A DNA stretch of 35,607 bases. Origin: Phaeodactylum tricornutum CCAP 1055/1 (lineage: Eukaryota > Bacillariophyta > Bacillariophyceae > Surirellales > Neidiaceae). Location of the stretch: NCBI RefSeq assembly GCF_000150955.2, contig NC_011684.1, positions 728,619 through 764,225 on the forward strand. Direction: 5' to 3'. The position numbers were made by a program, and so were the translations under genes. Positions 897 to 33,916 of the stretch are shown in pieces. The notes below the pieces were generated by a model. That model was not told the DNA's origin and searched no databases. It saw nothing but the letters and a program-made list of their open reading frames with translations. The first letter of the stretch is position 1. Each line of letters starts with the position of its first letter.

Positions 897-2744
<1,848 letters not shown>

Positions 2745-10421: not shown

Positions 10422-10505
10422 CAGCGTCAATATGGTCTGTTATTAACACTGATATTGAATGTATCTAAGACAACGGAAGGCTGTACGAACGATTCCCCCG
10501 CTTAC

Positions 10506-12292: not shown

Positions 12293-12386
12293 GGCTAATG
12301 TTGTCATGGAAACTCAGTTTTACAATACAGTAGTAATGGTAGAAGATACCGATACGCATTCGTAGAGTTTGTAGAGAAGAAGTTTT

Positions 12387-15064: not shown

Positions 15065-15315
15065 CCTAAGGGGAGGGGGTATCCCAGAGTAGTAACTATG
15101 TACCTCGCTGTATAAAATTTATCCAAAAACTCTTCCTAAGTAATTCCTCTGGGATAGCAGGGTTTCCCTCTGGGATGTCTAAGTAATCACTCTGGGATAG
15201 CAGGGTTTTGCTCTGAGATATCAGGGTTTCCCTCTGGGATATCAAATAAGGTTAAAGCCACTACTCTGGGATACCTAACTTGCTGACGTCCGGCATACAG
15301 CCTTCACAGTCAGTT
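15065..15315 (+). repeat. CCTAAGG module, family A: leader and first array units
   Basis: It begins CCTAAGGGGAGGGGGTATCC. The leader motif TATCCCAGAG is the reverse complement of CTCTGGGATA, which then recurs through the array (from 15147 onward and in the following 165-bp units). Between leader and array lies an AT-rich block with TATAAAATTTATCCAAAAAC and CTAAGTAATT, shared with the other families. There is no coding sequence. It marks the edge between single-copy genes and the repeat mosaic. Its distal body (CCTAACTTGCTGACGTC, then TTGTTCTTCC) is shared with family D. Confidence 0.8.
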
Positions 15316-15975
15316 GTTCTTCCCCGAATTGTTTGTGTTGTGTATTTCCTCTGGGATATCATATCCTTCCTCTGGGATATCATGTATTCCTTCTGGGATA
15401 TCAAATAGGGTTCGAGCTACTCCTCTGGGATACCTAACCTGCCAACATCCGGCATACAGCTTTCACATTCACAGTCAGCTGTTCTTCCCCGAATTGTTTG
15501 TGTTGTGTATTTCCTCTGGGATATCATATCCTTCCTCTGGGATATCATGTATTCCTTCTGGGATATCAAATAGGGTTCGAGCTACTCCTCTGGGATACCT
15601 AACCTGCCAACATCCGGCATACAGCTTTCACATTCACAGTCAGCTGTTCTTCCCCGAATTGTTTGTGTTGTGTATTTCCTCTGGGATATCATATCCTTCC
15701 TCTGGGATATCATGTATTCCTTCTGGGATATCAAATAGGGTTCGAGCTACTCCTCTGGGATACCTAACTTGCTGACATCCGGCACACAGCTTTCACATTC
15801 ACAGTCAGCTGTTCTTCCGCGAATTGTTTGTGTCGTGTATTCCCTCTGGGATATCATATCCTTCCTCTGGGATATCACGTCTTCCCTCTGGGATATCAAA
15901 TAGGGTTCGAGCTACTCCTCTGGGATACCTAACCTGCCAACGTCCGGCATACAGCTTTCTGTTGTTCCTTGCGAA
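15316..15975 (+). repeat. Family A array: four tandem 165-bp units
   Basis: Units start at 15316, 15481, 15646 and 15811, each exactly 165 bp apart; the second and third are nearly identical and the fourth is more diverged. Each unit carries four copies of CTCTGGGATA(T/C)C or close variants. Because 165 is divisible by three, frames stay open across the units on both strands (plus 15314-15775, minus 16200-15805); I take these as a by-product and not genes. It is minisatellite-like and part of module A. Confidence 0.85.
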
Positions 15976-16059
15976 TTGCGTTTGCGTCAGCACTTTGTGT
16001 GGCTTTGTCGGCCATATAACGGATTCTTCTATACTCACGCAATGTATTGTTGATACAAT

Positions 16060-16840
16060 GAGGGAGTAAGATGAATAAAGGGGAAAGCCTCGTAAGGCCC
16101 CGATTGTATTGTATTTAATCGGTAACTCAATCGGTTTGACCTCGACTGAATTTAGAATTGTGAGTAGAGACAAATATGGATGTAATCTTTTCGAGTGCAA
16201 ACAAATCCCTTGGAGCTCCCTTAGGAGTCTCAGTAGAATCAGTACTACTCTCCACGGATAGTCACATTACTGGGATAGTAATGTTCTGGTCAATCGTATT
16301 CAAGGAGACCGTAGCCTCTGTACTGTCTTCTATGCGTTGATCCCGCAGAATCCAGATGACTGCAAATGAATGCAAATGAATGCATATGAATGCAAATGAA
16401 TGCAGATGAATGCAGATGAACATGAGACCCTTTGATCGTGTGCAGACTTATCTGCTTCGATTCAATCCCAGTTTGTAGACGTGGAGAAGGTATTTTCTTT
16501 ACCTCTCAAGGGATGACCATAATAGAGAAAATCGCTTATGTAAAAATGATTTCTTGGTCGGCAAGACATGTCGTCTTGCGTGTCACAACTGCTGCATCCT
16601 TAGATGCACACACGTGTCACTTCGCACTGCCTTCGCAAATGACATTTCGGTAATGACCCGAAAAACATTGCCTCTATCCGCAGCGTCGTACAGACGACGA
16701 CTGGGACAGTAATAAGGCTGGCAAACATGGCCAATATTCAGAGCTAGGCACTATGCTAGTTGAATGTTCCAACAACAATAGCTATGACAATTGCTCACCT
16801 TAGTGGCAAATTGCAGTATTGCGTGGCTATACTTTATCAC
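16060..16840. repeat. Dispersed hairpin-rich repeat E, copy 2
   Basis: A relative of 3650-4320 with the same order of landmarks: GGGGAAAGCCTCGTA at 16079, short hairpins, ATGTTCCAACAA, and the right end GTGGCTATACTTTATCAC at 16840. Hairpins: ACATTAC/GTAATGT (16264-16270 with 16278-16284), GCAAGAC/GTCTTGC (16561-16567 with 16573-16579), TTTCGG/CCGAAA (16645-16650 with 16658-16663), GTCGT/ACGAC (16685-16689 with 16694-16698). Family B module 1 follows two bases after the shared right end. No coding sequence was recognised. Confidence 0.6.
16358..16422 (+). repeat. 10-bp microsatellite-like tandem repeat
   Basis: About six copies of a unit close to ATGAATGCAA, with A/G and A/T variants, inside repeat E copy 2. 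Copy 1 of E lacks it, so it expanded after the two copies separated. Confidence 0.85.
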
Positions 16841-16842
16841 TC

Positions 16843-17165
16843 CCTAAGGGGAGGGAGAACCCAGAGTAGTACTTTCCTACAATGATGTATAAAATCTATC
16901 TAAAAACTCCTCATAAGTTAACCCTCTGAGTTCACAGTGCGACATATAAATATTCCCTCTGAGTTCACAGTGCGACATATAAGTATTCCCTCCCAGTTCA
17001 CTGTCCGATGTTGTAAGTAATTCCTCTGGGTTCAGTGTCCAACAACATAAGTAAACCCTCTTGGTTAACCCGGAGAACAGTACTTCTTTTCTAAAGCAAT
17101 AAAATCTTTTTCAAATCCTTACTAATGTAAAGTGACGCTGTGAAAACACCCTACCAAAACACCTG
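16843..17165 (+). repeat. CCTAAGG module, family B, copy 1
   Basis: It starts CCTAAGGGGAGGGAGAACCC. The leader motif GAACCCAGAG is the reverse complement of CTCTGGGTTC, found in its array at 17024. The array has five motifs at 33-34 bp spacing (16924, 16957, 16990, 17024, 17058): CTCTGAGTTCACAG, again, CTCCCAGTTCAC, CTCTGGGTTCAG, CTCTTGGTTAAC. A TATAAAATCTATCTAAAAAC block sits between. Its tail holds a degenerate second leader (AACCCGGAGAACAGTACTTC, then AATAAAATC). The unit is exactly 323 bp and is followed head-to-tail by copy 2. Confidence 0.85.
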
Positions 17166-17488
17166 CCTAAGGGGAGGGAGAACCCAGAGTAGTACTTTCC
17201 TACAATGATGTATAAAATCTATCTAAAAACTCATCATAAGTTAACCCTCTGAGTTCACAGTGCGACATATAAATATTCCCTCTGAGTTCACAGTGCGACA
17301 TATAAGTATTCCCTCCCAGTTCACTGTCCGATGTTGTAAGTAATTCCTCTGGGTTCAGTGTCCAACAACATAAGTAAACCCTCTTGGTAAACCCGGAGAA
17401 CAATACTTCTTTTCTAAAGCAATAAAATCTTTTTCAAATCCTTACTAATGTAAAGTGACGCTGTGAAAACACCCTACCGAAACACCCG
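17166..17488 (+). repeat. CCTAAGG module, family B, copy 2 (tandem)
   Basis: A nearly identical 323-bp repeat of copy 1; I can pick out only a handful of substitutions. It ends where a further CCTAA (17489-17493) begins and then diverges into unrelated sequence, as if a third unit had been lost there. Confidence 0.87.
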
Positions 17489-17989
17489 CCTAATCAAAAT
17501 TTCTGGCTGGCAGTGACGGTGTATGATGCAACATCCAAAACCTCACGGTCCGTCCAACATTTGAAATTTCTAATTTTCACAGTCATGCAACCAAAACAAC
17601 TTCAACATTCAAATGATAGGCACACCCATTAGGAAGAGGTCTAGCAAGCAACTCCAACAAGCTGCCACGGACAAGGCATTAATGTAGTCGGTGCAGCAAT
17701 TGTCCGCTTTGGAGGATTTCTGGCCTTTGCAAATGGCAAAGTGGGAAAACGGTACCGGAGTGGAAGATCCCAGGCGCAATATCTTCGACGCGATTTCAAG
17801 GAGCAGGGGGAAGCGGCACAGAGGGAACAGGAGTTCCGCAAAACAAAGTTTGCGACAGGGTTTAAATGATGTCGAACAAAATCGGAATAAGGCTGGGATA
17901 AAGCTCAACGCGAGCAGTGTGCGCCAACCGACAAGTTTACAAATACACTACGAACGCTACCACGCTACAAAATGGAGACACTGCTTGCA
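17489..17989. other. Unassigned subtelomeric sequence
   Basis: About 500 bp without a gene I recognise. A plus frame at 17691-18002 (no strong motifs, Lys/Arg/Gln rich) could be a decayed coding fragment. A weakly similar purine-rich stretch lies at 33950-34130, upstream of the other copy of the following duplication, so the two may be diverged homologues. Confidence 0.35.
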
Positions 17990-18900
17990 CTTCAGGAACT
18001 AAATCAACTAGTCTTTTTAAAGTTAGCATACTGTTACGCATTTTTTTGAGTGTTTGTAGTATCTATAGCTGTTCTACACACATGTTGGTTGTATTTTGAT
18101 ATCTGTTGTATCCTGTACTATTTTTATTGTGGATTCTATTTGGTTTACTTGTCCCCCACACGGCCTGCATCTGCAACTCTCTTGGTCACTCCCATTATGG
18201 CTAGGGAAATGGAAAGCGTTGTTTGCCACGGATAGCAGCCAAGCAAGGTTTCCTCCGGTCACAGATAGAGTGACCCAATACAACTGATATTTTGCCAACA
18301 CCAGCTTTGGTCAATGAAACACTGGCAAGCCCCTTGCAACCGGAAATGATAACTACCAATACTTCCCGCAATTTTCATTCAATTCCAACTTTGGTTCCCT
18401 CCGTCACGATCGCAGCAAGGCATTTTCGATGGTAAAAAAATATTGCGGCCTTTGTCGGCCCCAAATGACATGCTTTTGTTGTGCCAAATGACAGCACAGT
18501 GGGTACCTGCAGCCAAATAAGGGTTCTGTTTGATACGGGTTGACGGATCCGGTTTGACCGTTGCCATCGTCACCCATTGCTGTCGTTGTTGTTGCTGTTC
18601 TTGTTGTCACTGTAGACAGCACCAACAGAACCAATACCAACCAACGCCAATACAAGCACAGGGAGCTGCTTCACAGCCCAAAGAAGTGGACTACGGCTCC
18701 CGCAGTTAGTGTTTCTCTTTCGGCTGTACCATCATGTTTTGTTCTGGCCAGTACAACTGCGGTGCGTACAGCTTCTCCAGCAGTTTCCATGAAAAAATCT
18801 TCCGGGCCAAACGGCTCGTTCGCGTCGTGAATTTTTCTGAAGTTCTGACTGTCGACTCCGATTTCCCTATGAGTGTCGGCAGCATACCAGTTTACAGTGA
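17990..18900. repeat. Subtelomeric segmental duplication, copy 1
   Basis: Diverged copy of 34195-35030. Shared landmarks in order: TAGTATCTATAGCTGTTCTA, CACACATGTTGGTTG, CAAGCAAGGTTTCC, CACAGATAGAGTGACCCAAT, GGCCCCAAATGACATGCTTT, CCAACGCCAA and CTCCAGCAGTTTCCATGAAA. Small insertions and deletions separate the copies. A decayed minus-strand reading frame lies inside. Confidence 0.8.
18170..18655 (-). pseudogene. Decayed minus-strand reading frame within duplication copy 1
   Basis: Reading minus, short frames join by frameshifts to give a sequence also present in copy 2 (34333-34864): a hydrophobic start (WLVLVLLVLSTV), then after a frame change HNKSMSFGADKGRNI, then after another CLAAIVTEGTKVGIE followed by a stop, then REVLVVIISGCKGLASVSL. 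I do not recognise the family. At least two frame changes and one stop make it non-functional. Amino acids are shared with copy 2 in the same order, but the copies are also similar as DNA, so coding constraint is not proven. Confidence 0.4.
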
Positions 18901-19546
18901 GGTGCGGTTGAGGACCTAACAGGTAGAATCAGTACATATTTGAACGTGATTTTGAAACCCGCCGGCTCATTACTGCACCAAGCTATTTTTCTTGTTGGTG
19001 GACCAGGGAAATACCCGTGACATGGAATAAGTGATAAACTTAGTAGGTGATTTAGCCATCCCCTAACGAAACAATGAATTTTTCCAGATGTGACAAGATC
19101 AAATTGACGGATTGATGTAACATCTTTTCACAGTCCTTATTTGCGTTGTTAATTGTAAACTTTTCTAAAGTTGTCTGCCAACTCCAAGTGTATACGTGGT
19201 TTCCAATTTCCTTTGGACTGTCAGGAGCATATGCATCAACTCCAGTTGTAATTTTATTGCCTTGAGCATATAAATACAGAATTGTAAGTAATTTCACTTT
19301 GGTAACCTAATTACAGTTAATTAGTATATATATAAGAAACTGGAAGAAATGCGAAAAATCACTTGTTAAAAATCTCTCCCAGGAATGGAAAATTTTTCAC
19401 AGAATTTCTGTCAGATTTTTCTCAGATTCCATTCACCACCAACACCGAAGTAACAACACAAGTTTTTGGAAGCCCCCAGTCAACAATTTTCATAGTCCTC
19501 CTCCCATAAGCAACTTTTGTTTTTAGGAAAAAGCACAAGTTCCACA
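18901..19546. other. Leader region of the helicase gene with a possible minus-strand exon remnant
   Basis: The minus frame 19297-19052 ends in a stop and reads ...TILYLYAQGNKITTGVDAY, then GNHVYTWSWQTTLEKFTINN and SVNLILSHLEKFIVS. It looks like the last exon of a gene: a TAATTAG sequence just upstream on that strand could be a splice acceptor, but no earlier exon is visible. I do not recognise the family. The helicase promoter must lie in the remaining AT-rich sequence. A possible acceptor (GTTTTTAG at 19518-19525) leaves open an upstream non-coding or coding exon of the helicase gene. Confidence 0.35.
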
Positions 19547-22500
19547 ATGAGTGACTCACAGTCAAACAAATCATACTCTACCAAACAAACAACTGGCAGT
19601 ATGCACCTGTATATTAATAATCCATATGCAGCCAAGGGGAAAAAAAGAAAAGAATTTGACAGAGAGAGTCAAAATCAGACCCTACCCTTGTTGAAACCAG
19701 TAGAAAAAATTACCCAGCCAAGAAATAGAAGTGTATGTACTAAGGTTGGTGTTCCAACACTAGTCACTATAGCAGCAGCAACAGATCCATTGCTTCGTAC
19801 CCCAGGAAGTTCTTTGGCAACAACCAAAGAGTTCACTGACATAATAAATGATGACTCAGATGACCACATTTTTCAATGTACACCCTTTGGTCTATACTGT
19901 CTAAAATGTAAGGCAAAAGTCTCTGCAGAACAAAGCACCAGCTTTCACAGGCATGTCAAAAAGTACCATGCTGGGTATATGTGTCAAAGTTACAACAAAC
20001 TGAAGCTGGAAGTAGAGAGACTCAAAAATCTGCCACCAAATGAATTCTACTGTGAAGGTACCCAAAAAGTGCTGGATACCTGTGGTATATGTGGAGAGGT
20101 TTTTTCAAGACCAGATAATGTCCAACGTCACATTGCAAATTCAATCCAGAAGGGAGGTGCATGTGCTCAGGCTGACATGGTAAAGAAATTGTGTGTAAAA
20201 ACCATTTGCAATAGGGTGGTTGAGTATTTACCCAAAGACAAGGTAGTCCAACCGTCAGCAAAGCTTTTCTCTTACAATGACATGACCTTGATCATCAAGC
20301 CATTTATCAGAGAAGATGAGAATGCTGAGAGATATGTTCCTATCTTCTCCCAGATCATCAAAAGTACTGGCAAGCAATTTGAAAGCAATATCATGGAACA
20401 CATTCTTCAATACCGTGAGCTGGAGGCAACTGAACTTCAATTGATCAAGTTGGTTAAGATTGCAGAAGATTGGCTGACTCAATATGCAAGGATTGAAGTT
20501 GCTGAAGTGCCTGCTAACCTCAGAGCCAGCTTGATGCTTTATGAGGGAGTGGAGGTCAATCAAGTTGCCCAGAACACAACTTTTTCTATGAGAGAAAATG
20601 TCAGCGTGTTGAGCAAGGAACTGAAAAAGCTCCTGTGCTTCCTCTGGAGACATGATTGTGTTGGAACTGGTATCATTGTCAAGACAAGACAAGAGCTCTC
20701 TGATCTTCTGGAGCTCAGTGAGTCTTCTACTCAGATCATTGAAGGTGGTCTGATAGGCAAGCTTCTGGTTGATATCTTACTGGAAAATCCTGCCAGCACA
20801 AGTCAATGTCCATTGGGCTGTGTCTATGCTGCAGCTAGATGCTTCTTCATTTCCAAGGACCAGCTTGTGTTGAGATCAGCTGATGCATCTGCTTCCCAAG
20901 TTGCCACCATAATGCACTTGTTCAGACTGGCCTACTGTTCTGTTGTGGGGACTGTGAGCCATCCTCTTGGTTACATAGAAGGAGCAAAAGTTCTGGTGAA
21001 AACTATTATGGAGAGGCCCACCATGAACACCCTTGGACCCATGATCAGGCATCTCAGAGAGATCCAGATGCAGAAACCCAAGATTGTTGACAGGTATTTC
21101 TCTAGAAATGGAGAGATTGTGGTGCAAGGGCTCATCTTCAAGCCAGAAATTTGGAAGACTCTCATTCCAAGGGTTGTTAGTGCTGCCAGACTTGTTCTCA
21201 GTCAGATCTTTGATGGAAAGGATTGGGAAGTCTTTTTGACCACAACTCTGCCTTTGCTCAATGTTGGAATATCAGGTGGAGCTGATGAGGGAGTTCAGTT
21301 TCAAGTTCAACAAGCTGGTGGAGATGTGTTCAGTGAATCTTTGAAGCTGTCTCCTCAGCTCAATGAAATGGATCAAGACCATCTGTCATCCATTGTGGAG
21401 TTCTGTTTGCATGGTCTGGGTCTTGGCAGTATGAGGTATTCAGAAACTTTAGGCCTACAAGATTTTCAAGTTCTCTGGGGGGATGGTGCTTTGTACTTCT
21501 ATGCCAAATCTACAAAGAAGTGGAAGGCCCAGTCAAAACTCAGTACTGAGCTTACCCAGCACAAGCTTCCAAAGTCAATTTCAAGGATTGTACTGCTCTT
21601 CAGACTTGTCATTTCATTGAGAGGAGGGGATTTGTCAAGCTTTGTACCAGTAAGAAGTGACAGGAAGTACCTCATGAAAGACTTTGTGCAGTCTCTATTT
21701 TGTCTTCCCAGAGCACCTGATGATCTTCAAGTCAGGCATTTCTTTGCAAGTCTGTCCAACTATTTGTTCCCTATGCAAGATGATGGGAAGGCCACCACTT
21801 CTGACATGGTTGCCATGCAGAGTCATCATGCTCCTTCTACTCATGCCAGTACCTACTTTACTCATAGAAAGGCTCATCTTGAGGACTACTATGATGCCTA
21901 CCACTTTCATCTTGGAGACAAGGATACTCAGTGGACCTTTGATATTCCCCTGGATGTTCTGCCTGAGAATACCATTGTTGCTGCTCTCAAAATCTTGTAT
22001 GGTGGAGAAGCAAATTGGCTGTCTGAGACTCAGAGGAGTATGGTTCTGACATGGTCCACTTTGTCCAAGAATGTGATAGCCAATCTACCTTGTGGAGGAG
22101 GGAAGTCTGCTGTGTGGGAGGTGACAGCCTATGCCAGACATAGAGTTGGTTTGACAAGGAAGTGTGCTGTTGTGGTGGTTCCCTACAAGTTTCTAGCCTA
22201 CAATCACTACCATTCTGCCAAGTCCAAATTTGAACTATTAGATGGTGTCAGTGTTGATATGTTGGAGAGTTCTGCTGTTTGTTCCAATCAAGTTCCAACC
22301 ATTCTAAAGTCAGATGTTCTTCCACACATTCTATTCCTCACAGTTGATGCACTGGCTAAATTGTTGGAATTCCATCTTCCCATAGTGCAAAGTATGCAAT
22401 CAAGATTGGCTGGTTTTGTCATTGATGAGTGTCACTGTCCATATACAGAAACATTCAGACCAGTATTTGACTGTTTGCAGGACCTTACAATGTTTGGTGT

Positions 22501-22837
22501 TCCCATTTGTGCTCTGAGTGGTACACTTCCATCTACCTTTCCTTCTTCTCTGATGAAGTACTATGGAGTATCTGCCTTTGAGACTGTGGCAGATAGTGAT
22601 TGCATTGGTGATGGCTTCTCCCTGTCAATCAAGCAGTGTCATGATGAAGTTGCTGCAGTGACTAGGAAGGTGGTGCAGGAGAGGAATCAGAATTCAAGAA
22701 GTGCAATTCATATCATTGCAGCATCTGCCAGAGTTGCAGAGCTTCTTTTCCAGCAGCTGTGTTCCAAGAGTTTTCAGTGTCTGCTTGTGACTTCCCTAAG
22801 GGGAGGGAGAACCCAGAGTAGTACTTTCCTACAATAA
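19547..22837 (+). CDS. Zinc-finger DECH-box helicase, telomere-linked RecQ-like (TLH-like); C-terminus replaced by module B
   Basis: 1096 codons from the ATG at 19547; about 1082 are native. Two zinc-finger-like motifs come first: CLKCKAKVSAEQSTSFHRH...H from residue 118 and CGICGEVFSRPDNVQRH...C from 179. A ~600-residue middle part is unassigned. The helicase lobe starts near 825 with a Q-motif-like SETQRSM, Walker A NLPCGGGKSAV (~846), Walker B/DECH VIDECHC (~957) and motif III ALSGTLP (~987). CGGGKS and DECH point to the RecQ-like side of superfamily 2. Fungal subtelomeric TLH proteins have a comparable plan. Motifs IV-VI should follow but are absent: the frame enters module B at 22795 and stops 43 bp later, adding 13 foreign residues. 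The second lobe is therefore missing and ATPase-driven unwinding is unlikely. Arginine is encoded almost only by AGA/AGG. A second partial copy lies at 32507-33095. Confidence 0.78.
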   Translation: MSDSQSNKSYSTKQTTGSMHLYINNPYAAKGKKRKEFDRESQNQTLPLLKPVEKITQPRNRSVCTKVGVPTLVTIAAATDPLLRTPGSSLATTKEFTDIINDDSDDHIFQCTPFGLYCLKCKAKVSAEQSTSFHRHVKKYHAGYMCQSYNKLKLEVERLKNLPPNEFYCEGTQKVLDTCGICGEVFSRPDNVQRHIANSIQKGGACAQADMVKKLCVKTICNRVVEYLPKDKVVQPSAKLFSYNDMTLIIKPFIREDENAERYVPIFSQIIKSTGKQFESNIMEHILQYRELEATELQLIKLVKIAEDWLTQYARIEVAEVPANLRASLMLYEGVEVNQVAQNTTFSMRENVSVLSKELKKLLCFLWRHDCVGTGIIVKTRQELSDLLELSESSTQIIEGGLIGKLLVDILLENPASTSQCPLGCVYAAARCFFISKDQLVLRSADASASQVATIMHLFRLAYCSVVGTVSHPLGYIEGAKVLVKTIMERPTMNTLGPMIRHLREIQMQKPKIVDRYFSRNGEIVVQGLIFKPEIWKTLIPRVVSAARLVLSQIFDGKDWEVFLTTTLPLLNVGISGGADEGVQFQVQQAGGDVFSESLKLSPQLNEMDQDHLSSIVEFCLHGLGLGSMRYSETLGLQDFQVLWGDGALYFYAKSTKKWKAQSKLSTELTQHKLPKSISRIVLLFRLVISLRGGDLSSFVPVRSDRKYLMKDFVQSLFCLPRAPDDLQVRHFFASLSNYLFPMQDDGKATTSDMVAMQSHHAPSTHASTYFTHRKAHLEDYYDAYHFHLGDKDTQWTFDIPLDVLPENTIVAALKILYGGEANWLSETQRSMVLTWSTLSKNVIANLPCGGGKSAVWEVTAYARHRVGLTRKCAVVVVPYKFLAYNHYHSAKSKFELLDGVSVDMLESSAVCSNQVPTILKSDVLPHILFLTVDALAKLLEFHLPIVQSMQSRLAGFVIDECHCPYTETFRPVFDCLQDLTMFGVPICALSGTLPSTFPSSLMKYYGVSAFETVADSDCIGDGFSLSIKQCHDEVAAVTRKVVQERNQNSRSAIHIIAASARVAELLFQQLCSKSFQCLLVTSLRGGRTQSSTFLQ

Positions 22838-23100
22838 TGTATAAAATCTATCCAAAAACTCCTCATAAGTTAACCCTCTGAGTTCACAGTGCGACATATA
22901 AATATTCCCTCCGAGTTCACAGTGCGACGTATAAGTATTCCCTCCCAGTTCACTGTCCGATGTTGTAAGTAATTCCTCTGGGTTCAGTGTCCAACAACAT
23001 AAGTAACCCTTCTCGGCTAACCCGGAGGGGGAAGTTCTTTGTCTAATACAATAAAATCTTTTTTACTGTCAAACCCTTTCTGAAGTAACGTTATTAACAG
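22795..23100 (+). repeat. CCTAAGG module, family B, copy 3, interrupting the helicase frame
   Basis: It starts CCTAAGGGGAGGGAGAACCC directly inside helicase codons. The leader, AT-rich block and array match copies 1 and 2 (array motifs near 22875, 22908, 22942 and 22976), and the tail again has a second leader-like piece (AACCCGGAGGGGGAAGTTC). Similarity to copies 1 and 2 fades after AATAAAATCTTTT (about 23065). The helicase does not resume downstream. Confidence 0.85.
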
Positions 23101-23345
23101 TAAAATAGGAAAACCCTACGACAAGCATATGGGGGTTCAATATCCCTTAATCGTGGGGACAAGTTTATAAGTTTTGTTTTAGAAAAACCCTACGACAAGC
23201 ATATCGGGGTTCATTATCCCTTTATCTTGGGTTTATGCTTAATAAGTCTTTGTTTTACGTCTTTTTATCGTATCTACAATCCTTTGGTCCCACAGACACG
23301 TTTTAGCCCGTTATCGTTGCAGTTTTCTAAACAATCTGGAAACTC
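23101..23345 (+). mobile_element. LTR-like remnant with a 74-bp tandem duplication
   Basis: AAACCCTACGACAAGCATAT occurs at 23111 and again 74 bp later, each followed by GGGGTTCA(A/T)TATCCCTT. Further right, GCCCGTTATCGTTGCAGTTT (23309 onward) recurs in reverse complement at about 24620-24643, and the order of neighbouring blocks (GGGGACAAG, GGGGTTCAT, TATCCCT, GCCCGTTATC) also matches that region read on the minus strand. I read both as diverged LTR or LTR-adjacent pieces of copia-type elements in opposite orientation. No coding sequence. Confidence 0.45.
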
Positions 23346-24984: not shown

Positions 24985-25947
24985 TCAATTTAAAATTTGA
25001 CGCATAAGATTCTGTCGTACTGGAGCTGACTGAACCTTTGTTAGCGCATTGGCTAAGTTTGTTTCCGACGGCTCATAAGCAATCTTGATAACTCCCATCG
25101 CGACATTCTCTCGTACAAAGTGATATGCAATAGCATTACTCTTCTTCTTCAACATTGATTCCGGCGCTGTAGTATTGTGTACCACCGACATATTGTCGCA
25201 CAAAACTCTAGCCGGACCATCAATCGGAGTTCCCATCATCCGTAACTTATACCTTAAACCCTGAATCATCTCCGTAGCAATCTTTAATGCAACGAACTCA
25301 CTTCCAAACGAAGACGTTTCAACTGAATTCTGACGCTTCGAAAACCACATAATCGGAGCATGATTAAGATAGATCAAAACACCTGTTTGTGAACGGCAAG
25401 TGACTTTGTCTCCAGCATGGTCAGCGTCAACAAAAGCAGTAATCTCCACAGCTCTACCATGTGGCTTCGGAGCATTCGGCGGAATAGATTCCTTCACATT
25501 ACCATAAAAGTCCGTCCAATCTGCACCATCTATAAAATGGTTCTCAATATCAGCATATGAATCATCAAACACGAGTCGTGACCTGTTGTGAGATTTCAAA
25601 TAAGCAAAAATATGGAGAACAGCACTCAAGTGTCCTTCTCGTGGCATCGCGAGAAATGATGAGAGCATAGATACTTCACACATAATATCAATTCGACCAA
25701 TTTCAACTGCCCATCTCAAAACACCAATCTGAGACTGAAATAGTTACATTCAACAAAGGTGAAACATCCAGTTCAGGTCGATATTTCGTCGACATTGGCG
25801 ACGACACTTTGTTAGGCAAACCTCTTTTGATTTTGTCCAAATCTTTCTCAACATTCGCGACAGCTTGTTTCACATAATTTGTCGAACTCATAGACCATCG
25901 CGGTTTGTCTGGCTTATCGGGAAGTGAAAAGTGTCCAAGATTCGCTC
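24985..25947 (-). pseudogene. Ty1/copia-type polyprotein fragment: end of reverse transcriptase and RNase H
   Basis: Minus strand, about 320 residues. It begins within SLPDKPDKPRW and STNYVKQAVANVEKDL, then YRPELDVSPLLN, then after a one-base frameshift near 25735 SQIGVLRWAVEIGRIDI, SMLSSFLAMPREGHL and HIFAYLKSHNRSRLVF, the conserved end of copia reverse transcriptase. RNase H follows: ITAFVDADHAGDK, NSVETSSFGSEFVALK, CDNMSVV and KKKSNAIAYHFVRENV, ending at a stop near 24985. Copia elements move by an RNA intermediate. Gag, protease, integrase and most of the reverse transcriptase are absent; the fragment is cut exactly where module C copy 2 begins (25948). It is inactive. Confidence 0.9.
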
Positions 25948-26429
25948 CCTAAGGGCAGGAAGATCCCAGAGAACTAGGGGTATACCTAGCTGTATACATT
26001 TTATCCAAAAACTATTTCTAAGTAATTGCTCCGGGATCTTCAAGTTGGTTTGTCTTTTGCGTAGGTAACTGCTCCGGGATCTTCAACATAGTTTGTCTTT
26101 TGCGTAGGTAACTGCTCCGGGATCTTCAACATAGTTTGTCTTTTCAATAAGTAATTGCTCTGGGATCTTCAACATGGTTTGTCTCTTGTCTAAGTAATTC
26201 TTTTGGATTGGTGATAAATCTACTTTTCCACCTAACAGACTCATTTTAAATCCATGTCAGACCAGTATTGACCATATAGAGACTCCAAAGTGTTGGACAA
26301 ACGGATAAGCGTCGGGCAGACAAGAGAAGATCCATCGGACACACTAATATCAGGATCGGGCAGAAGATGGTAGGTGAATTCAGACAAGCGGCTAAGCAAG
26401 CATACTCGACCAGTACACAGTGCGACAAC
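25948..26429 (+). repeat. CCTAAGG module, family C, copy 2
   Basis: Same leader, AT block and array as copy 1 (CTCCGGGATCTTCAA units near 26029 and 26072 and later CTCTGGGATCTTCAA). The distal body ends in GTACACAGTGCGACAAC at 26429, the same base at which copy 1 ends. It begins inside the copia frame and truncates it. Confidence 0.87.
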
Positions 26430-26444
26430 ATTAGTAATCCCTAT

Positions 26445-26564
26445 GGGTTAGGGTCAGGTACGTACAAGACGTAAAAAGGAGCTAATGCACTATTCCCAGA
26501 AGGGTTAGGGTTAGGGTCAGGTACGTACAAGACGTAAAAAGGAGCTAATGCACTATTCCCAGAA
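26445..26564 (+). repeat. 63-bp tandem duplication with interstitial telomere-like repeats
   Basis: Two direct copies (26445-26507 and 26508-26564) of a unit running from GGGTTAGGGTCAGGTACGTA to TATTCCCAGAA. At the junction the sequence is GGGTTAGGGTTAGGG, two and a half perfect telomere hexamers in the same strand sense as the chromosome end, about 8.8 kb internal to it. Confidence 0.88.
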
Positions 26565-26629
26565 TAACGAAGGTGTTAAGGTAAGTTACTCGCAACACTG
26601 CAAAGACAGCAGTTCAGTGTTTCGGTTTT

Positions 26630-27135
26630 CCTAAGGAAAAGGAGATCGCTGTGTAGTAAACTTATGCATGAATGGATATTTTATCTTTACACAGGGATTC
26701 ATTTTTTACTTAACCCATCCCACTGGGATCCAAAAAATTCCCACTGAGATTCAAAAACAGTGAAAGTTACTCCACAGGGATAACTAACTTGCTGACGTCT
26801 GGCAAACAACTTTCACAGTTGGTCGTTCTTCCGTAAGTCGCGTCTGCGCTTTGTGTTGCTTACATACAACTGTGAACAGTCAGTATAGGCCAAAATGGAC
26901 TTGCCCTTTATACAGCTTCTAGCTAGTAGAGAATTTTTCTTTCTTCAAATTTTACAACAGAAAACACTCATGGCACCCTGTTTGCATCTACAATGTAGGA
27001 AGCGAACAGCATTGACCACGGATGTTTTTTTGCAGATAGAGTAGGCTAACTCCAGAGAAGACTGGTGATCATGCAGTGTGGTGATTTGGAGTGTAATTTG
27101 GAGCGTTTTACGAAATCTGGTGCTTATTTCGCGAC
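26630..27135 (+). repeat. CCTAAGG module, family D, copy 1
   Basis: 506 bp, close to identical to 33411-33916. It starts CCTAAGGAAAAGGAGATC. The leader motif here is ATCGCTGTGTA (ATCCCTGTGTA in copy 2), and the array motifs are TACACAGGGATTC, CCACTGGGATCC, CCACTGAGATTC and CCACAGGGATAAC. The distal body (TAACTTGCTGACGTC, TCGTTCTTCCGTAAG, CTGCGCTTTGTGT) is related to the end of family A. The two copies stop matching after GCGAC at 27135 and 33916. Confidence 0.87.
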
Positions 27136-27397
27136 CCTCCACGGCGTTATACACGGCACCGTGGGCACATTCATCATAGTTACCATGCTCCTTAGCATGG
27201 CTACGGTCAAGTCCCAAAACAGTCACATCATGTTTCTGAATACTCAGCTGGGATTGCGCCTGTCCAAAACCATCCGTGTCGGGATTTGTGGCCAAACACA
27301 CAAGATTAGTTTTGACAGGCTTGCCTTGGGTGCCACGACCCAAGTAGTGCGCGCCATCACGCAAACCAGTACTCAAAACTGTCATTCCAGTTGACAT
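27136..27397 (-). pseudogene. Fragment of an unknown protein-coding sequence, cut by the end of module D
   Basis: Minus strand from 27397: MSTGMTVLSTGLRDGAHYLG, then LVCLATNPDTDGFGQAQSQL, KHDVTVLGLDRSH and so on for ~88 residues, after which the frame runs into the distal end of module D and loses meaning. Composition looks coding. I do not recognise the family, and no continuation is visible. Confidence 0.35.
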
Positions 27398-27584
27398 GAT
27401 TTGATGCTCTTGAGATATTGTCTCAATTTCTCAGGCTTATGATTTTATTCAAGAGAGTATTTTCCATTGAAAATTTGCTTGTAAGAAACAAGATCACATT
27501 CAGCAAAAATGGCATGTGCAGAGGTTAAGCACCCATTTAGTGGATTTGGCAGGGTCTTAGCACCCATTTAGCGAATTTCCTCAA
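27398..27584. other. Short unassigned stretch with a repeated phrase
   Basis: AGCACCCATTTAG occurs twice (about 27526 and 27559), 33 bp apart. Nothing else recognised. Confidence 0.3.
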
Positions 27585-27880
27585 TGATTTTGAAAACAGC
27601 AGTGAAATGTTCCTCGCGCGGACAATGAAGACACTTCACACATTGACCAAGTTCAACTGCCCATCACAATATATCCAATCTGTGACTGGAAATAGTTAGT
27701 GCAATCAGGATCGAGAATAGCAGATATATCTAACTCGGGGCGATTACTGGTCCACTTCGGAGACGAAGCACAATTGCTTAATGTAAGGCCCTTCCGATTT
27801 CATGCCAGTCTTGTTCAACGTTTTCCACGGCTTGTTTCACGAATTCCGTAGAGCTCATCGACCATATTCTTGTCGTAAAG
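27585..27880 (-). pseudogene. Second, more decayed copia-type reverse transcriptase fragment
   Basis: Minus strand reads WSMSSTEFVKQAVENVEQDW, then after frame disruptions RPELDISAILDPDCTNYFQS and QIGYI, matching the same stretch of polyprotein seen at 25700-25930 (SSTNYVKQAVANVEKDL, RPELDVS, SQIGVLRW). Stops and frameshifts are frequent. It also retains a trace of the PREEH stretch near 27620. It is an older insertion than the copy at 24985-25947. Confidence 0.75.
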
Positions 27881-28509
27881 TTTTCCGAGGATTAATAGTA
27901 AGAGGCCTGGCCTGGTGATCACCTTCAAATCCACCCGCTGTGATTGACCTATTACCGATACGCGAAAAGTAAAATACAACAAAAATTTGGTGATGTACAA
28001 GGAATACTAGATAAAACGTGAATTCAGAATTTAAGCCACTAACGCGCTAGTTTCACCCAATCCAGAAATTTATGTACTTTGAGCTTATGCCCAAGTTATA
28101 GGTGTAAAAGGAAGTCCAATTTCATTGAGATTTTTCGAAGTGCGTAGCTATTAAATGGAAATGGAGCTTTTCCTCTAAGCAGGAATGACACCTTTGATTT
28201 GGTGATCTAAGACCTCATGTACATATATATACCTGGGAAGACTTTCTCACTTCACTTTGCGCATCCATTTTACCGTAACGCAGACAACCTGGTAAAATCC
28301 GAATCAAAGCAGATAGAATTTATCTTGCAAGAAATTCAACAAAATTTATCGAGGGCTTCGAATTGCGGGCATCTACCTTTATGTTTGTGTAGAAATAAGG
28401 TAAAAGCAACAACTTTTGAACGCACCACACTTTAAACCAACGAGACTGTGAACTTCGCCTGTCTCTGGCTGTTCAATTCTTTCTTATTGGATATTGCAGA
28501 GACAAGAGT
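27881..28509. other. Intergenic region upstream of the unknown membrane-protein gene
   Basis: About 630 bp of AT-rich sequence. Small frames (27815-28000 minus, 28217-28435 plus) carry no motifs. The promoter of the gene at 28510 should be here; TACATATATATACC at 28219-28232 is the nearest TATA-like stretch. Confidence 0.35.
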
Positions 28510-30173
28510 ATGTCAAACCCGACGCTGATCTATTCCGTCATGTCGAAGGGCCAAGCACCTAAGCTATATACTGAGCTGACGAATGTGAAAGGGGCGCGTG
28601 TGGTCAACAATTACGATGGTACAAATAAGGAGATTGGGAGATTGATAGAAACAACTCTCTTTATACCAAAGGGTACAACGCTAGCTTTCGCAGTGCCTAA
28701 AGGCGTCGGGGTGAGAGTTAGTCGCCCCATCCTCAACGCTGACGGAAGCGAGGGCGGCACTGATCGAAAAATTGTGAAGCACCAAATTGATGATGAGCAC
28801 TATTGCATCATCGTAGCGGAGCAGGACGGCACTTCCACCACTTCAATTACAAGCCGATCCGGCGTGATGTATATGTTGATTCATTTAGAAGATGCCGTGC
28901 CCACAATTGGGGTCAACAATGTTCTCTCGTTGCTGGGGTTTTATAGCTCGGGTTCGAGGGAAGAGTCGCAACACCTGTTCTTGGAGCACAATACGGATTT
29001 CCTTAAACTCGGGACGTCGCTAAGTGACGCCACAAATGACCTTCCCGTTGAGCTGTGGTACAATGAGGTAAGACGGCTTCTTTTTTGTGTTCTATTGTTA
29101 TTGCTAGCAGTGGGTTTGCACTTTTCAACGGACGGTTCAAAGAGGAACTTGTTACTATTCCTGTCTGAGCTGGCCACCACAATCTTGTTCATACAATCAT
29201 ACGCGGGTTTTAAAAATAGAAGATTCAACTTATGTGCACAAAAGATTGGCAAGTTGGTATCAGACGTAAGTTTCATCCTACAGCTCCTTGCGGAAAGGAG
29301 CGGCACGGGCCTTGAGGTATCAGCATGGGCCCTGCCCATGTTGCGCAGAAAGCGGGCATTCATGACAAGGGCTACAATAGACCTAACATCTGTTGCGGGA
29401 AGCTTGGATGAAAGTGTCCTTTCTACAGGACTAGCCCTCACCCTACTTGGGGTGAGGTGAGCGGCCTGTGCTGTGCTTTTGATGGCGACAGTAGCTCTGA
29501 CTGCAACGTTGTATGTAATGGTGTCATGTCCCAGGATCCTATCATAGTTGCGCTGGGGGGGGTTCCGACTGCAGGGGGAGTAAAAAAAGTGCTCGCTTCA
29601 AATAATCATGGAACGTCGCACGCTTTGTTTGGCTGGCAGGAGATCCGTCCAGCAGAGTCTAAGGAGACCAGTCCGGTAGGGTCCAGGATTGGAGCTACTG
29701 TGAACGGACAGCTAATTTATCACAAAGATACAACGTATGGAGGGAGGGGATGTTGTCTATCCTTGGTGAAATGTAAGGGAAATAAGTACACACCAGGATG
29801 GTCCATTTGCAGTTACGCAGATCACTTTCTTGAACCCCCTTCGGATTGCTGGGGTTTTGTGTCATTCCCAGTCCCTGGAGGCATGGCTATCCTGAACTTG
29901 CCCAGAATCCTGGTATTTGTGGCAGCCTTTTTTGCCGTGAATAATGGCTACTTCCACATGACCACAGCAGCGGCAGTTGCGGGTACGGTTGCTGTGATGA
30001 TGAAAACTCTGATCAGTGAACCCACAATCAATAAATGGAAACATCTCTTTGTCACCAATGCAGCCTGCTGCAATGATCTGCTTGCGCTCCACAACAGAGA
30101 ATGTGAGAGAGCATTTAAGCCAGGGGAGCTGTCAAGAGAAGGTTTGTGCGCAAGGCTTGGGGTTTACCCCTAA
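28510..30173 (+). CDS. Unknown multi-pass membrane protein, probably two exons, truncated by module C
   Basis: The first frame starts at the ATG at 28510 and runs to 29460; a second, offset frame runs 29457-30173. A GT-AG intron of 83 bp (29452-29534; donor GGTGAGG, acceptor CATGTCCCAG) joins them in frame as LALTLLG then DPIIVALGGVPTAGG, which supports one gene of about 525 residues. Likely membrane segments: LLFCVLLLLLAVGLHF, LFLSELATTILFIQ and a pair around RILVFVAAFFAVNN and AAAVAGTVAVMM. A Cys-rich stretch (GGRGCCLSLVKC, SICSY) lies between. I do not recognise a family. The last codon before the stop overlaps CCTAAGG at 30169, so the TAA is supplied by module C copy 3 and the true C-terminus is lost. 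Codon use includes CpG normally, unlike the helicase gene. Confidence 0.55.
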
Positions 30174-30505
30174 GGGCAGGAAGATCCCGGAGAAGCAAGG
30201 GTATACCTGGCTGAATAAAATTCATGCAAAAACTATTTCTAAGTAATTGCACCGGGATCTTCAACATGCCATGTCCTTTGCGTAAATAATTGCACTGGGA
30301 TCTTCAACTTCGTTTGTCTTTTGCGTAGGTAAATGCACCGGGATCTTCAACATAGTTTGTCTTTTTAATAAGTAATGGCTCTGGGATCTTCAACATGGTT
30401 TGTCTCTTGTTTAAGGAATTCTCTTGGATCATCGATAAGTTTACTTTTCCACCTAACAAATTCATCCTAAATCCATGTCAGACCAGCACTGACCATATGG
30501 AGTCT
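30169..30505 (+). repeat. CCTAAGG module, family C, copy 3
   Basis: It starts CCTAAGGGCAGGAAGATCCC; its leader reads AGATCCCGGAG while copies 1, 2 and 4 read AGATCCCAGAG, and its array is the most diverged (CACCGGGATCTTCAAC, CACTGGGATCTTCAAC). The distal body matches copies 1 and 2 up to about ACTGACCATATGGAGTCT, then stops, so it is shorter at the far end. It supplies the stop codon of the preceding gene. Confidence 0.85.
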
Positions 30506-31827
30506 TTCTCCCACTACCGCAACTAGAGCTACCGCTGCCATACATCCTGGTATGACTGCAAAGACGTCACCTTCATTAAGCACAGATGCCGCCCAATACG
30601 GCTTTCTAGCAATCCCTGCGAGTACCGTAGCATCACGCGGATCCAATAAGATGCAGTAGGAAACCCTCGGGACCCCGTACGTGGAAGTTCTCCAAAGAGA
30701 CGACCAGTCCCCATCTACACAACTTCTAGAGGAAAACGAACTCTACAGGAATTGTCGTAGCCGCACGGTAGTGGAACTGTTTCCTTTGGCTGCGTGCCTG
30801 TTTGCAAGGCCAAAATTTAATTGTCGATTTCACTGGATTCATTCCTCTGCCCCCCTCCCCAGGCAAGACCCTCTATAGTCGCTCCGCCGCCAAATTCAGG
30901 ATCTTGAAGGCATTGTCCGGGACAAGGACGACTTACTCCGCACCAATTATCAACCTGCTCAATACGACCTAAGCCAGAATGGAGCTGCCACTACAAGGTC
31001 CTAGGACCTACTGGTATTTGCCACGCGAGTGCTTTGTCACAGATAAAAAGGCTCGAAATTTGCAGTCGGGTGGTTGTTTGGTTGATTTGCGTGATCTTTT
31101 ACGAAATGCTGTTCTAAAAAAAAACCAAACGAGAGACGCCATTCCAGCTTGGACGCAACCCCCACACTCATGTACCATTAGTTCCTTCCTTGCCATTGTC
31201 CACACCCCTCGTGTGCTTGGTTGATTGCACCACAGATGTCCATTGGCATTGCTCACTTTCATTGTTGAGCCCTGGTTAATGGGTGCCAGTGGAGATTCCA
31301 ATGCCGGAAAGGAGTTTAAGGAATGGGCGGATAATGCCAAAGAAACCCACGGCATCAAGTTTACAGTTTCCCTCAACAATCTCCCGCCTCCGTAAGCCCC
31401 GCGGCTTGCTCTCATTTGCGGACGGACGGCCAACAATCCGCAAATATTGACCAAATCAATTGCCAAGGGGCCTAGACTCTTGCTGGTAGGCCAGGAAAAA
31501 GCACAATTTCACAATAGACGTCGCGCGAGAATACCGTATTCATTGTAACGTTTGCCACGTGTTTGGAAAACAACCATTTTGGGACAGACAATTACAGGAC
31601 CAAATCTTGACCACCACTACAAGGATCAATGCACATTCTGTTGAATTTCCAGACCAAACTGTTTTGTTGTCTCAGAGTAAGTATTCCATTGGAGCTTGCT
31701 TCATATATTTAGTCATTGCAACCAACTTGCTGAGATTTACCAAAAACCATAGTGTGTATTTGAAGGAAACAGTATTAACTGTAAAGTAAGAATTTTTAAT
31801 TTACAATCATGTAAGCCTTTGTCAATT
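30506..31827. other. Unassigned subtelomeric stretch, probably decayed coding fragments
   Basis: No intact gene. Plus-strand frames around 30541-30650, 30681-30878 and 30979-31224 look partly coding but are broken by stops. At about 31287-31395 the plus strand reads MGASGDSNAGKEFKEWADNA and GIKFTVSLNN before a stop; this faintly recalls the D-N-x-G-x-E-F and G-I stretch of a retroelement integrase core, but is too short to claim. Past 31500 the sequence is AT-rich with nothing recognised. Confidence 0.3.
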
Positions 31828-32500
31828 CTAATCATGTAGCCACTTTTGCTCCAACCACAATGCTGGAGCGGCAACCACCTGTGCTTTTGTGATACTGCTA
31901 AGAATGGACACGTTCCGAAAGTCACCCGCCCTGTACAGGGGCAGGACTGTTTTCAAAAGCCCTTCATAGCTCAAACAAATTTCAGGCGTAATTTCCGTCT
32001 TGTAAAAGCTCTGTTTGACTTGTTGGCGGTCCATTTCTTCTTTATTGGTTTGTGTTTCAATGGCACGAGCCTTGCATAGGACATCTGCATTGGACATGGA
32101 TTGTCCGGCATCCGCATTGGCTTACACATTGGCGCTGCTGCTCTACAGAGGCGGCTTTGACGGCCTGACGTTGTTTGGCCAACTTGCTGACTTCAACGCG
32201 GGTTTGTATGTCAATGATAATTTGTATAGATCTCGGAGTCCAATGCGCTCTTCGTCGACGCGCGGGTTGTTGGTGGAAAAGACAAGATCTGCGACGAACA
32301 TTTCGTAGGCATCGGACAAGTTGACGTCGTCTCCCTGATTGTTGTTGGTGCTGATGAGATTGTATGAGTCCGATTTGATATTGTCAAGGAGACTGTACAA
32401 GTGTGTGGTCAACACGACGGTGCCGGCGGGGTAACGGAAGGCATGCTTGCCCGACGTCGCCGCGGATGGGGCAGGCAGCACCGAAAAGGCGCGAGCGCTT
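31828..32500 (-). pseudogene. Frameshifted minus-strand gene fragment, function unknown
   Basis: Minus strand, starting near 32500: SAATSGKHAFRYPAGTVVLT, HLYSLLDNIKSDSYNLIS, DAYEMFVADLVFSTNNPRVD and GLRDLYKL; after a frame change QTRVEVSKLAKQRQAVKAAS; after another, with an in-frame stop, ADAGQSMSNADVLCKARAIE and SYEGLLKTVLPLYRAG. The fragments run in order and look like one coding sequence with at least two frameshifts. I do not recognise it. It is rich in CpG and joins abruptly to the CpG-free helicase fragment at 32507. Confidence 0.5.
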
Positions 32501-32506
32501 TTGAAC

Positions 32507-33095
32507 GATTGAAGTTGCTGAAGTGCCTGCCAACCTCAGAGCCAGCTTGATACTGTATGAGGGAGTGGAGATCAATCAAGTTGTCCAGAACACTACATTT
32601 TCTATGAGAGAAAATGTTAGTGTGTTGAGCAAGGAACTGAAAAAGCTGCTATGCTTCCTCTGGAGACATGATTGTGTTGGAACTAGCATCATTGTCAAGA
32701 CAAGACAAGAGATCTCTGATCTTCTGGAGTGCAGTGTGTCTTCAACTCAGATCATTCAAGGTGGTCTGATTGGCAAGCTTTTGGTTGATGTCTTACTGGA
32801 AAATCCAGCCAGCACAAGTCAATATCCCTTGGGGTGTGTCTATGCTGCAGCTAGATGCTTCCTCATTTCCAAGGGCAAGCTTGTGTTGAGATCAGCTGAT
32901 ACATCTGCTTCCCAAGTTGCCACCATAATGCACTTGTTCAGACTGGCTTTCTGTTCTGTTGTGGGGGCTATGAGCCATCCTCTTGGTTACATGGAGGGAG
33001 CTAAGGTACTGGTGAAAACAGTTATGGAGAGGCCCACCATGAACACCTTTGGACCCATGATCAGGCAGCTCAGAGAGATTCAGATGCAGAAACCC
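32507..33095 (+). pseudogene. Second copy of the TLH-like helicase gene, middle-domain fragment
   Basis: 589 bp aligning without gaps to 20491-21079 (offset 12016), about 95% identical by eye. It encodes ~195 residues of the unassigned middle domain, for example SVLSKELKKLLCFLWRHDC and IMHLFRLAFCSVVGAMSHPL, with no stop. It lacks the zinc fingers, the helicase lobe and a start codon of its own. The left edge abuts an unrelated fragment; the right edge is cut by module C copy 4 after CAGAAACCC. Like the full copy it has no CpG inside. Confidence 0.9.
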
Positions 33096-33410
33096 TAAGG
33101 GCAGGAAGATCCCAGAGAAGTAGGGGTATACCTAGCTGCATACAATTAATCCAAAAACTATTTCTAAGTAATTGCTCCGGGATCTTCAAGTTGGTTTGTC
33201 TTTTGCGTAGGTAACTGCTCCGGGATCTTCAAGTTGGTTTGTCTTTTGCGTAAGTAACTGCTCCGGGATCTTCAAGTTGGTTTGTCTTTTGCGTAGGTAA
33301 CTGCTCCGGGATCTTCAACATAGTTTGTCTCATGATTAAGTAATTGCTCTGGGATCTTCATCATGGTTTGTCTCTTGTCTAAGTAATTCTATTGGATTGG
33401 TGATAAATCA
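33094..33410 (+). repeat. CCTAAGG module, family C, copy 4
   Basis: It starts CCTAAGGGCAGGAAGATCCC, then leader, AT block and about six array units with a 43-bp period (near 33175, 33218, 33261, 33304 and later). It matches copies 1 and 2 up to TTGGTGATAAATC, where module D copy 2 begins instead of the usual distal body. Confidence 0.87.
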
Positions 33411-33916
33411 CCTAAGGAAAAGGAGATCCCTGTGTACTAAACTTATACATGAATGCATATTTTATCTTTACACAGGGATTCATTTTTTACTTAACGCATC
33501 CCACTGGGATCCAAAAAACTCCCACTGAGATTCAAAAACGGTGAAAGTTACTCCACAGGGATAACTAACTTGCTGACGTCTGGCGAACAACTTTCACAGT
33601 CGGTCGTTCTTCCGTAAGTCGCGTCTGCGTTTTGTGTTGCTTACGTACAACTGTGAACAGTCAGTATAGGCCAAAATGGACTTGCCCTTTATACAGCTTC
33701 TAGCTAGTAGAGAATTTTTCTTTCTTCAAATTTTACAACAGAAAACACTCATGGCACCCTGTTTGCATCTACAATGTAGGAAGCGAACAGCATTGACCGC
33801 GGATGTTTTTTTGCGGATAGGGTAGGCTAACACCAGATGAGACTGGTGATCATGTAGTGTGGTGATTTGGAGTGTAATTCGGAGCGTTTTACGAAATCTG
33901 GTGCTTATTTCGCGAC
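33411..33916 (+). repeat. CCTAAGG module, family D, copy 2
   Basis: 506 bp, near-identical to 26630-27135. The leader here is intact: AGATCCCTGTGTA, matched by TACACAGGGATTC in the array about 45 bp on. It is stacked directly on the truncated module C copy 4. Confidence 0.88.

Follow-up and report, generated by a model that had tools for sequence, protein, structure and literature searches.

Telomere-directed modules of Phaeodactylum tricornutum as possible one-ended, chromosome-terminal mobile elements

What are the modules that stand one behind another at a diatom chromosome end, every one of them pointing towards the telomere? The question is raised by a stretch of 35,607 nucleotides (nt) from Phaeodactylum tricornutum CCAP 1055/1 (NC_011684.1, positions 728,619 to 764,225), here called the window, which is the right end of contig C16 and passes into the telomere at position 35299. 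The telomere repeat of this species is AACCCT, according to the accessible part of the telomere-to-telomere (T2T) assembly paper. Ten segments of the window open with a common head, CCTAAGG. The reading that we favour, at a probability of about 0.4, is that these modules are the proximal ends of one-ended mobile DNA elements, the other end of which is the chromosome terminus itself, and that the elements are copied outwards from the head by a helicase/recombinase of their own.

Telomere-directed heads with a fixed start

All ten heads listed in the initial annotation were verified on the + strand, at 15065, 16843, 17166, 22795, 23989, 25948, 26630, 30169, 33094 and 33411, and the ordinary-gene part of the window (1-15064) contains 0 matches to CCTAAGG, as had been stated. 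The window total of 12 on both strands, which includes two non-heads at 23655 (+) and 16219 (-), compares with 2.8 expected by chance and was reached in 0 of 100 shuffles. A common plan, consisting of a purine run, a CCCAGAG or CCCTGTG leader, an AT block, a TAAGTAATT-like spacer and an array, had been ascribed to all ten heads; it holds for eight of them (15065, 16843, 17166, 22795, 23989, 25948, 30169 and 33094), while 26630 and 33411 are a shorter variant. The four families recognized earlier are present in the window, namely A1 (15065), A2 (16843, 17166 and 22795), B (23989, 25948, 30169 and 33094) and D (26630 and 33411), and two more, E and F, are found in other parts of the genome. The array spacing at the A1 head is mainly 21 bp (also 32, 53, 85 and 91); the main spacing is 33-34 bp at the three A2 heads, 43 bp at the four B heads and 31/21 bp at the two D heads. 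In line with the earlier description, no long terminal repeat or terminal inverted repeat was seen, and a search of 15000-35290 for inverted repeat pairs of 40 nt upwards found none. No target duplication was seen either, the element having no fixed distal terminus and so offering no distal junction for comparison. Searching 15000-35300 against Rfam returned nothing up to an expectation value (E) of 1.

Genome-wide searches covered 27,450,724 bases in 88 contigs. Two head patterns matched at 150 and 51 places, and the same patterns read backwards at 27 and 4. The orientation count took the 145 of these 201 places with at most one mismatch: 100 of 150 for the first pattern (88 exact and 12 with one mismatch among the matches listed) and 45 of 51 for the second, from which six places with two or three mismatches (on C1, C3, C7, C12, C45 and C53) were left out. 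Of the 145, 109 lie on contigs C1 to C33, with assumed lengths for C22, C27 and C30. As many as 105 of the 109 listed heads face the nearest end, on both left and right arms, and for 101 the distance to an end is at most 25 kb, in zones that amount to roughly 6% of the genome on the assumption of 66 ends; six more lie at 25-50 kb (all on C31) and two are internal (C12). At least one head is found on 29 chromosome ends or halves, the internal C12 pair being counted as one. The subtelomere enrichment and telomere-directed orientation that the initial annotation had anticipated are thus borne out, with four exceptions that face away from the nearest end (C12:422297, C12:422893, C14:812941 and C11:21267). 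Those on C12 belong to an A1-A2 pair (C12:422297-423200), which contains the sole internal heads of the listed set and adjoins interstitial telomere repeats. On the unplaced contig C44 (39040-39563), inverted modules, among them a headless E module, lie directly at the right telomere in an arrangement that looks like a fold-back or fused end. Because of the arrangements on C12 and C44, the away-facing heads may stem from former ends that were fused or inverted.

Where does the element itself begin? Junctions were compared in a set of 79 distinct cases, each with an uninterrupted homologue of its left flank (at least 80% identity over at least 40 nt) in the DNA examined. The 143 heads found by pattern include at least two false ones (C61:702 and C70:2564), the first of which sits among the 79 junctions. 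CC stands directly ahead of the junction in 68 of the 79 uninterrupted homologues, against a background of 4.2%. Since these homologues already carry the CC, the element begins at TAAGG and uses a pre-existing CC, so that the start originally placed at CCTAAGG has to be moved: its CC mostly belongs to the target. C-runs of three or more account for 28 of the 68 CC junctions, compared with 27.6% of background C-runs, and the entire native C-run is retained, the next native base being C in only 1 of 79. Within the window, the 33094 head interrupts a helicase gene (native AAACCC|AAG), the 22795 head another helicase gene (native TTCCC|AAAC) and the 25948 head a copia-like open reading frame (ORF; native GCTCCC|AAA).

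Junctions of this kind could in principle be left by host repair, whether by microhomology-mediated break-induced replication or by ectopic exchange among subtelomeres, the head being just a fragile or easily opened site. The CC at the junction is in keeping with such repair, as is T as the next native base in 34 of 79 cases (36% of background C-runs precede T), and so are subtelomeric blocks common to many ends and the existence of divergence points away from heads. However, homology of 2-3 bp cannot explain why some 120 distinct junctions (from 126 distinct left flanks, including a few false ones) lie at one donor nucleotide rather than at any CC, and we consider host repair an improbable explanation.

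Does the interrupted sequence resume on the telomere side? For 53 of the 79, no same-strand match of the native continuation lay further out in the DNA examined. In 13 cases all distal matches were separate copies with a left flank of their own, and in the other 13 at least one distal match had an unlike left context; checked by eye, these matches were other modules' heads or arrays, or copies many kb away, with C12:422895 as the sole exception. Resumption of the target on the telomere side was therefore not seen at 78 of the 79 junctions in the distal sequence examined, which has a median of 1,985 nt and reaches the contig end in 22 cases, six of them window heads. The 17166 junction is a tandem copy and hardly informative on this point.

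At their distal side the modules are truncated at variable points. We compared 93 spans, each 40 nt or longer and bounded distally by the following head or a telomere, with relatives at 80% identity or more. Fifty-nine of them are matched by another span from its head to within 6 nt of their own end, and for 47 of these 59 the relatives extend at least 20 nt beyond. The other 34 spans diverge earlier, have relatives whose available DNA stops first or, in one case, have no relative; certain divergence points resemble degenerate heads. By this measure the distal terminus of the element is not fixed. Four of the 59 prefix spans run into telomere repeats, and therefore telomerase can cap a cut module. 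Very short partial heads are also found, of 18 nt (ending at the head's first CCC) or 41 nt (C20), followed directly by another head. A conventional transposon that inserted at CC and lost its distal side afterwards would show the same target preference, and at C12:422895 an array may resume past the module with 14 nt missing; with no resumption at the other 78 junctions, no fixed distal end and one orientation in 105 of 109 heads, though, this explanation is highly improbable. Because target resumption is unseen and truncation leaves prefixes, the modules look like successive terminal additions.

Longer blocks recur as well. Seventy-five head pairs with unlike left flanks have at least 400 nt in common from the head at 96% identity or more, the best being a block of 2,086 nt at 100% (C14:825854 and C16:761714) that spans an inner head. 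A B module of 317 nt followed by a D module stands behind four different left flanks (C5, C14, C16 and C23).

Helicase gene, head region and a possible mode of copying

What do these elements carry? The initial annotation credited them with no coding capacity, a statement that fails for the long members. Behind the 17166 head, an ORF at 19547-22792 encodes at least 1,082 amino acids (aa), with a C2H2 zinc finger at about residues 178-196 and a C-terminal DEAD helicase domain (Pfam); the NCBIfam recQ model matched it weakly (E 0.0019). Counting this ORF, the genome holds 16 helicase matches, at the ends of C3, C10, C16, C18, C19 and C24 and on the unplaced C45, C53 and C62. Each of the 11 helicase N-termini follows a head of like orientation at a distance of 2.1-2.6 kb, which is similar inside a family: 2379, 2383 and 2394 nt in A2, 2251, 2245 and 2230 in F, 2179, 2103 and 2102 in B, and 2553 and 2555 in A1, where the positions of residue 1 are extrapolated and the C3 match spans only 26 aa. 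Eight of the 15 other helicase matches stop within 3 nt of a head. No relative of the helicase was found in PDB or among phages, in collections that held no fungal proteomes; in viral contigs the head pattern matched 0 times and the helicase pattern matched two stretches, neither of which was confirmed.

In the middle of the protein, residues 629-773 contain MRYSETLGL, AKSTKKW, QVRHFFAS and SHHAPSTHASTYFTH, in which a recombinase-like motif can be picked out by eye (R630/K654/R730-H731/H760-H761/Y770); its order and spacing come close to XerD, with 24 from R to K, 76 from K to R and 9 from H to Y, against 24, 75 and 9. The corresponding pattern, tuned post hoc and finding 2 of 6 Escherichia coli recombinases, occurred in 0 of 20,000 shuffles and 0 of 120 other open stretches. 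A tyrosine recombinase in the middle region is a lead only, drawn from this motif and its spacing.

The head region has a structure that bears on how copying might start. The leader noted in the initial annotation is present, and can now be described more exactly as the inverted complement of the array unit. Over 28 aligned heads (A1, A2, B and E), a 12-bp pairing between leader and array, starting 10 nt from the head end, is kept in 92.3% of cells; for the whole structure there are 24 double-change cells, against 7.2 in shuffled and at most 11 in slid alignments, and the covariation score is 0.217 against 0.121. In the same heads the number of pairs with double changes (4 vs 3.6) and of pair types (9 vs 9.3) shows no excess over shuffles, and among 14 D/F heads, treated separately, covariation is no higher than in shuffles. 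In folding stability A2b, E, B, D and F exceed their shuffles (z of roughly -2 to -6, and -1.8 for B on the plus strand), and A1 and A2a do not. The G.U changes point to the minus strand for A2 and B and to the plus strand for F, so that the strand call is not decisive. The leader/array region encloses a small inverted repeat, the halves of which are separated by a 6-bp spacer. Spacings between units fall mostly at 21, 32-34 and 43, with 45 or 66 from the leader to the first unit, near multiples of a DNA turn; these spacings are kin by descent, and a helical-phase test (best period 11.1, two wrong spacings) is not used as evidence. Judged from sequence, the pairing may reflect either protein binding on DNA or an RNA stem.

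Certain sites of the head, counted from TAAGG, are hypervariable. In 89 of 100 distinct heads (3 unassigned and 8 too divergent ones left out), site 44 departs from the subfamily majority in 29, spread over all seven subfamilies, against a mean over sites of 3.1, and it shows all four bases in B, D and F. In 7 of 41 disjoint nearest pairs the two heads differ at this site, against an expectation of 0.36 (107 differences over 12,232 nt), kinship among heads being ignored in this figure. Sites 34, 35 and 45 are hot too, and the four sites flank an 8-bp block of the small inverted repeat; examples in the window, at the same offset from the head, are 15111, 24034 and 33456. Re-randomization of site 44 at every mobilization is ruled out, because heads that are 100% identical stand behind unlike left flanks (C14/C16 and C8/C8).

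Could the template be RNA? A subtelomeric antisense RNA with ...CCTTAGG(G)-3' at its end might pair with a chromosome 3' end in ...CC(C), to be copied outwards by a reverse transcriptase (telomerase reverse transcriptase, TERT, or that of copia) in the manner of HeT-A. A defined RNA 3' end would yield both the fixed start and the CC(C)/GGG match, and RNA templating is at least as good an account of the stem and of the exact start as DNA copying. The position of the 12-bp stem so near the head end, its double changes and covariation above controls, and the stable folds of A2b, E, B, D and F are in its favour; the short prefixes that end at CC before a new head (18 nt three times; 17-18 nt at C10:973532 and C2:4902) resemble template jumping, and a hotspot at one offset in seven subfamilies could be misreading by a reverse transcriptase. 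A TERT gene is present at C13:546700-550100 (Telomerase_RBD, E 1.6e-32), and the genome therefore encodes telomerase alongside these elements. On the other hand, the template strand needed is the opposite of the helicase coding strand, a search with RVT_1 found no Penelope-type reverse transcriptase, and blocks with an inner head, 100% identical over 2 kb, move as units. The double-change pairs and pair types, the D/F covariation and the A1 and A2a folds stay at the level of shuffles, the strand preferences of the G.U changes conflict, and the pairing is also expected from a protein-binding motif present in both orientations. Moreover, an antisense template and a foreign reverse transcriptase would both be required, as in the case of Ty1 with Y' (the accessible part of PMC4700185). 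On balance, RNA-templated addition is the main rival, but unlikely.

Copying from DNA is favoured because the element encodes a helicase (perhaps with a recombinase), because the reverse transcriptase search, made with RVT_1 and not with the RVT_2 of copia, hit three places (TERT and two on C7) and none beside the element, and because blocks that include inner heads are moved whole. From the junctions, it seems that a fixed donor start is attached to an acceptor end in ...CC(C) and that copying proceeds outwards. The element would then consist of the TAAGG start, an end-recognition region (the inverted leader, the small inverted repeat with its 6-bp spacer and the array of leader-type sites) and a further non-coding stretch, with the helicase gene following from 2.1-2.6 kb on. 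A chromosome end, presumably broken and exposing a 3' C-run, would be joined to an element head, which the element's own helicase/recombinase might open or cut by acting at the leader and array; sequence from the head outwards would be added, possibly by DNA copying as in break-induced replication, and the former distal DNA would be lost at each addition. The new end would be capped by telomerase or by another element, and repeated cycles would stack truncated elements that all point outwards.

Several observations weigh against this reading of outward DNA copying. A natural end is absent from all helicase copies seen (16 genome matches). For the supposed recombinase, searches of the middle region with Pfam, PDB and hhalign gave nothing above shuffles, the His of the HxxR motif is replaced by Leu, and structure models of the helicase and of the middle region are poor (predicted local distance difference test, pLDDT, of 33.8 and 32.8). 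At C12:422895, an internal A1 array continues 220 nt past an A2 head, with 14 nt missing and 52 nt at 100%, which may be an insertion or an exchange inside a repetitive array. DNA copying would leave the nucleotide-exact start unexplained unless the head is cut, by a nuclease that is only supposed, and the stem and hypervariable sites could fit RNA features equally well. A bolder version, in which the elements form a new class with a recombinase-type left end (TAAGG head, inverted core and phased arm sites) and the telomere as right end, copied by a helicase/recombinase onto broken ends as telomerase-independent healing, strikes us as somewhat unlikely. On the reading that we favour, each head marks a point where the chromosome once ended, so that the subtelomeres of this model diatom would keep a record of end loss and repair. 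If this is true, end healing by mobile DNA becomes open to test in a species that encodes telomerase as well.

Modules of the window

Counted from TAAGG, ten spans follow each other on the + strand. The A1 span (15067..16844) has its head, the leader TATCCCAGAG and a 21-bp array, followed by 165-bp higher-order units; it agrees with its relatives to nt 950 and diverges beyond. The first A2 span (16845..17167) is a prefix of 323 nt ended by the next head. The second A2 span (17168..22796) is the longest, with its head, a 33-bp array, about 2.4 kb to the helicase start and then the helicase ORF (19547..22792, +) of 1,082 codons, which is interrupted by the 22795 head that ends the span. Ahead of the third A2 span (22797..23990) there is a native CCC (homologue at C24:1323), the native continuation of which has no distal match.

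The first B span (23991..25949), with a 43-bp array, holds a minus-strand copia-RNaseH-like ORF (24985-25719; recognized by eye, with no Pfam match), which is interrupted at the next head. The second (25950..26631) has a short interstitial TTAGGG piece, and at 26445-26564 there is a 57-bp duplication with short interstitial TTAGGG repeats; a similar GGGTTAGGGTCAGGTACGTACA piece occurs at other junctions (C12 near 423174 and an E span on C18). The first D span (26632..30170) contains two overlapping ORFs (28510-30173, +) of 316 and 238 aa in different frames, the first of which was found elsewhere only on C62; neither matched Pfam or NCBIfam above the cut-off. A third B span (30171..33095) includes a helicase fragment (32523-33098), and a fourth (33096..33412) of 317 nt precedes the terminal D span (33413..35298), which runs into the telomere repeats (TTAGGG)n at 35299..35607 (+), the chromosome end. 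A non-coding block is common to 18059-18710 and 34249-34909, behind an A2 and a D head, respectively, one of the copies adjoining the telomere.

Comparison with known systems

Which known systems come closest? Helitrons encode Rep and a superfamily 1 (SF1) helicase and insert between A and T; a Helitron was rejected on the junction CC|TAAGG, the DEAD (SF2) helicase and the lack of a Rep match in Pfam. Endonuclease-deficient Penelope-like elements are telomere-attached and lie in a single orientation; such an element was rejected too, as RVT_1 detects TERT but no Penelope-like element in the assembly and the left flanks are not telomere repeats. HeT-A and TART have a fixed proximal end and a variable, truncated distal end, and form head-to-tail stacks at chromosome ends. 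The diatom element was tested for these features and is like HeT-A in its location at chromosome ends, its one orientation, its fixed proximal and truncated distal end and the lack of resumption (with the one candidate on C12). It differs in that no reverse transcriptase was seen in it with RVT_1, the coding strand is reversed and telomerase repeats are also present.

CryptonS elements, according to the accessible part of PMC3212892, are tyrosine recombinase elements of P. tricornutum with terminal direct repeats of 5-6 bp, mostly TATGG. The element described here is by contrast one-ended, has TAAGG after CC and carries a helicase in addition; a Crypton was rejected for want of a fixed distal terminus. 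The MoTeR elements of Pyricularia are retrotransposons that insert in telomere repeats and whose truncated relics mark former ends (PMC8381367, in the part available). They share with the diatom element the telomeric position and the truncated relics, but differ in being retrotransposons and in having telomere repeats as their target. The fungal TLH genes (from the same part of PMC8381367) are likewise helicase genes near the telomere; the diatom helicase adds a zinc finger, and a link of TLH to a mobile head is not described in the accessible literature that was searched.

The Y' elements of yeast can serve end maintenance without telomerase, and Ty1 can mobilize Y' (PMC4700185 and PMC10054321, in their accessible parts). 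Y' is a subtelomeric, helicase-encoding repeat that has spread among ends, and here too a helicase gene is found at many ends; the diatom element appears to differ in its precise head with an array of its own, joined to unrelated sequence after CC. The initial annotation had held that no described element has this structure. As to the parts, this was too strong, since terminal retrotransposons have the same topology and subtelomeric helicases have been described (yeast Y', fungal TLH), but the combination was not found described: the literature searched, which took in few subscription papers, contains no account of such modules or of their combination, and the accessible part of the T2T paper is silent on them. 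If it is true that the element's own helicase drives the process, this would be a terminal mobile element without a reverse transcriptase of its own, and an unexpected counterpart of HeT-A and Y'. In its topology it resembles HeT-A, and in its cargo Y'.

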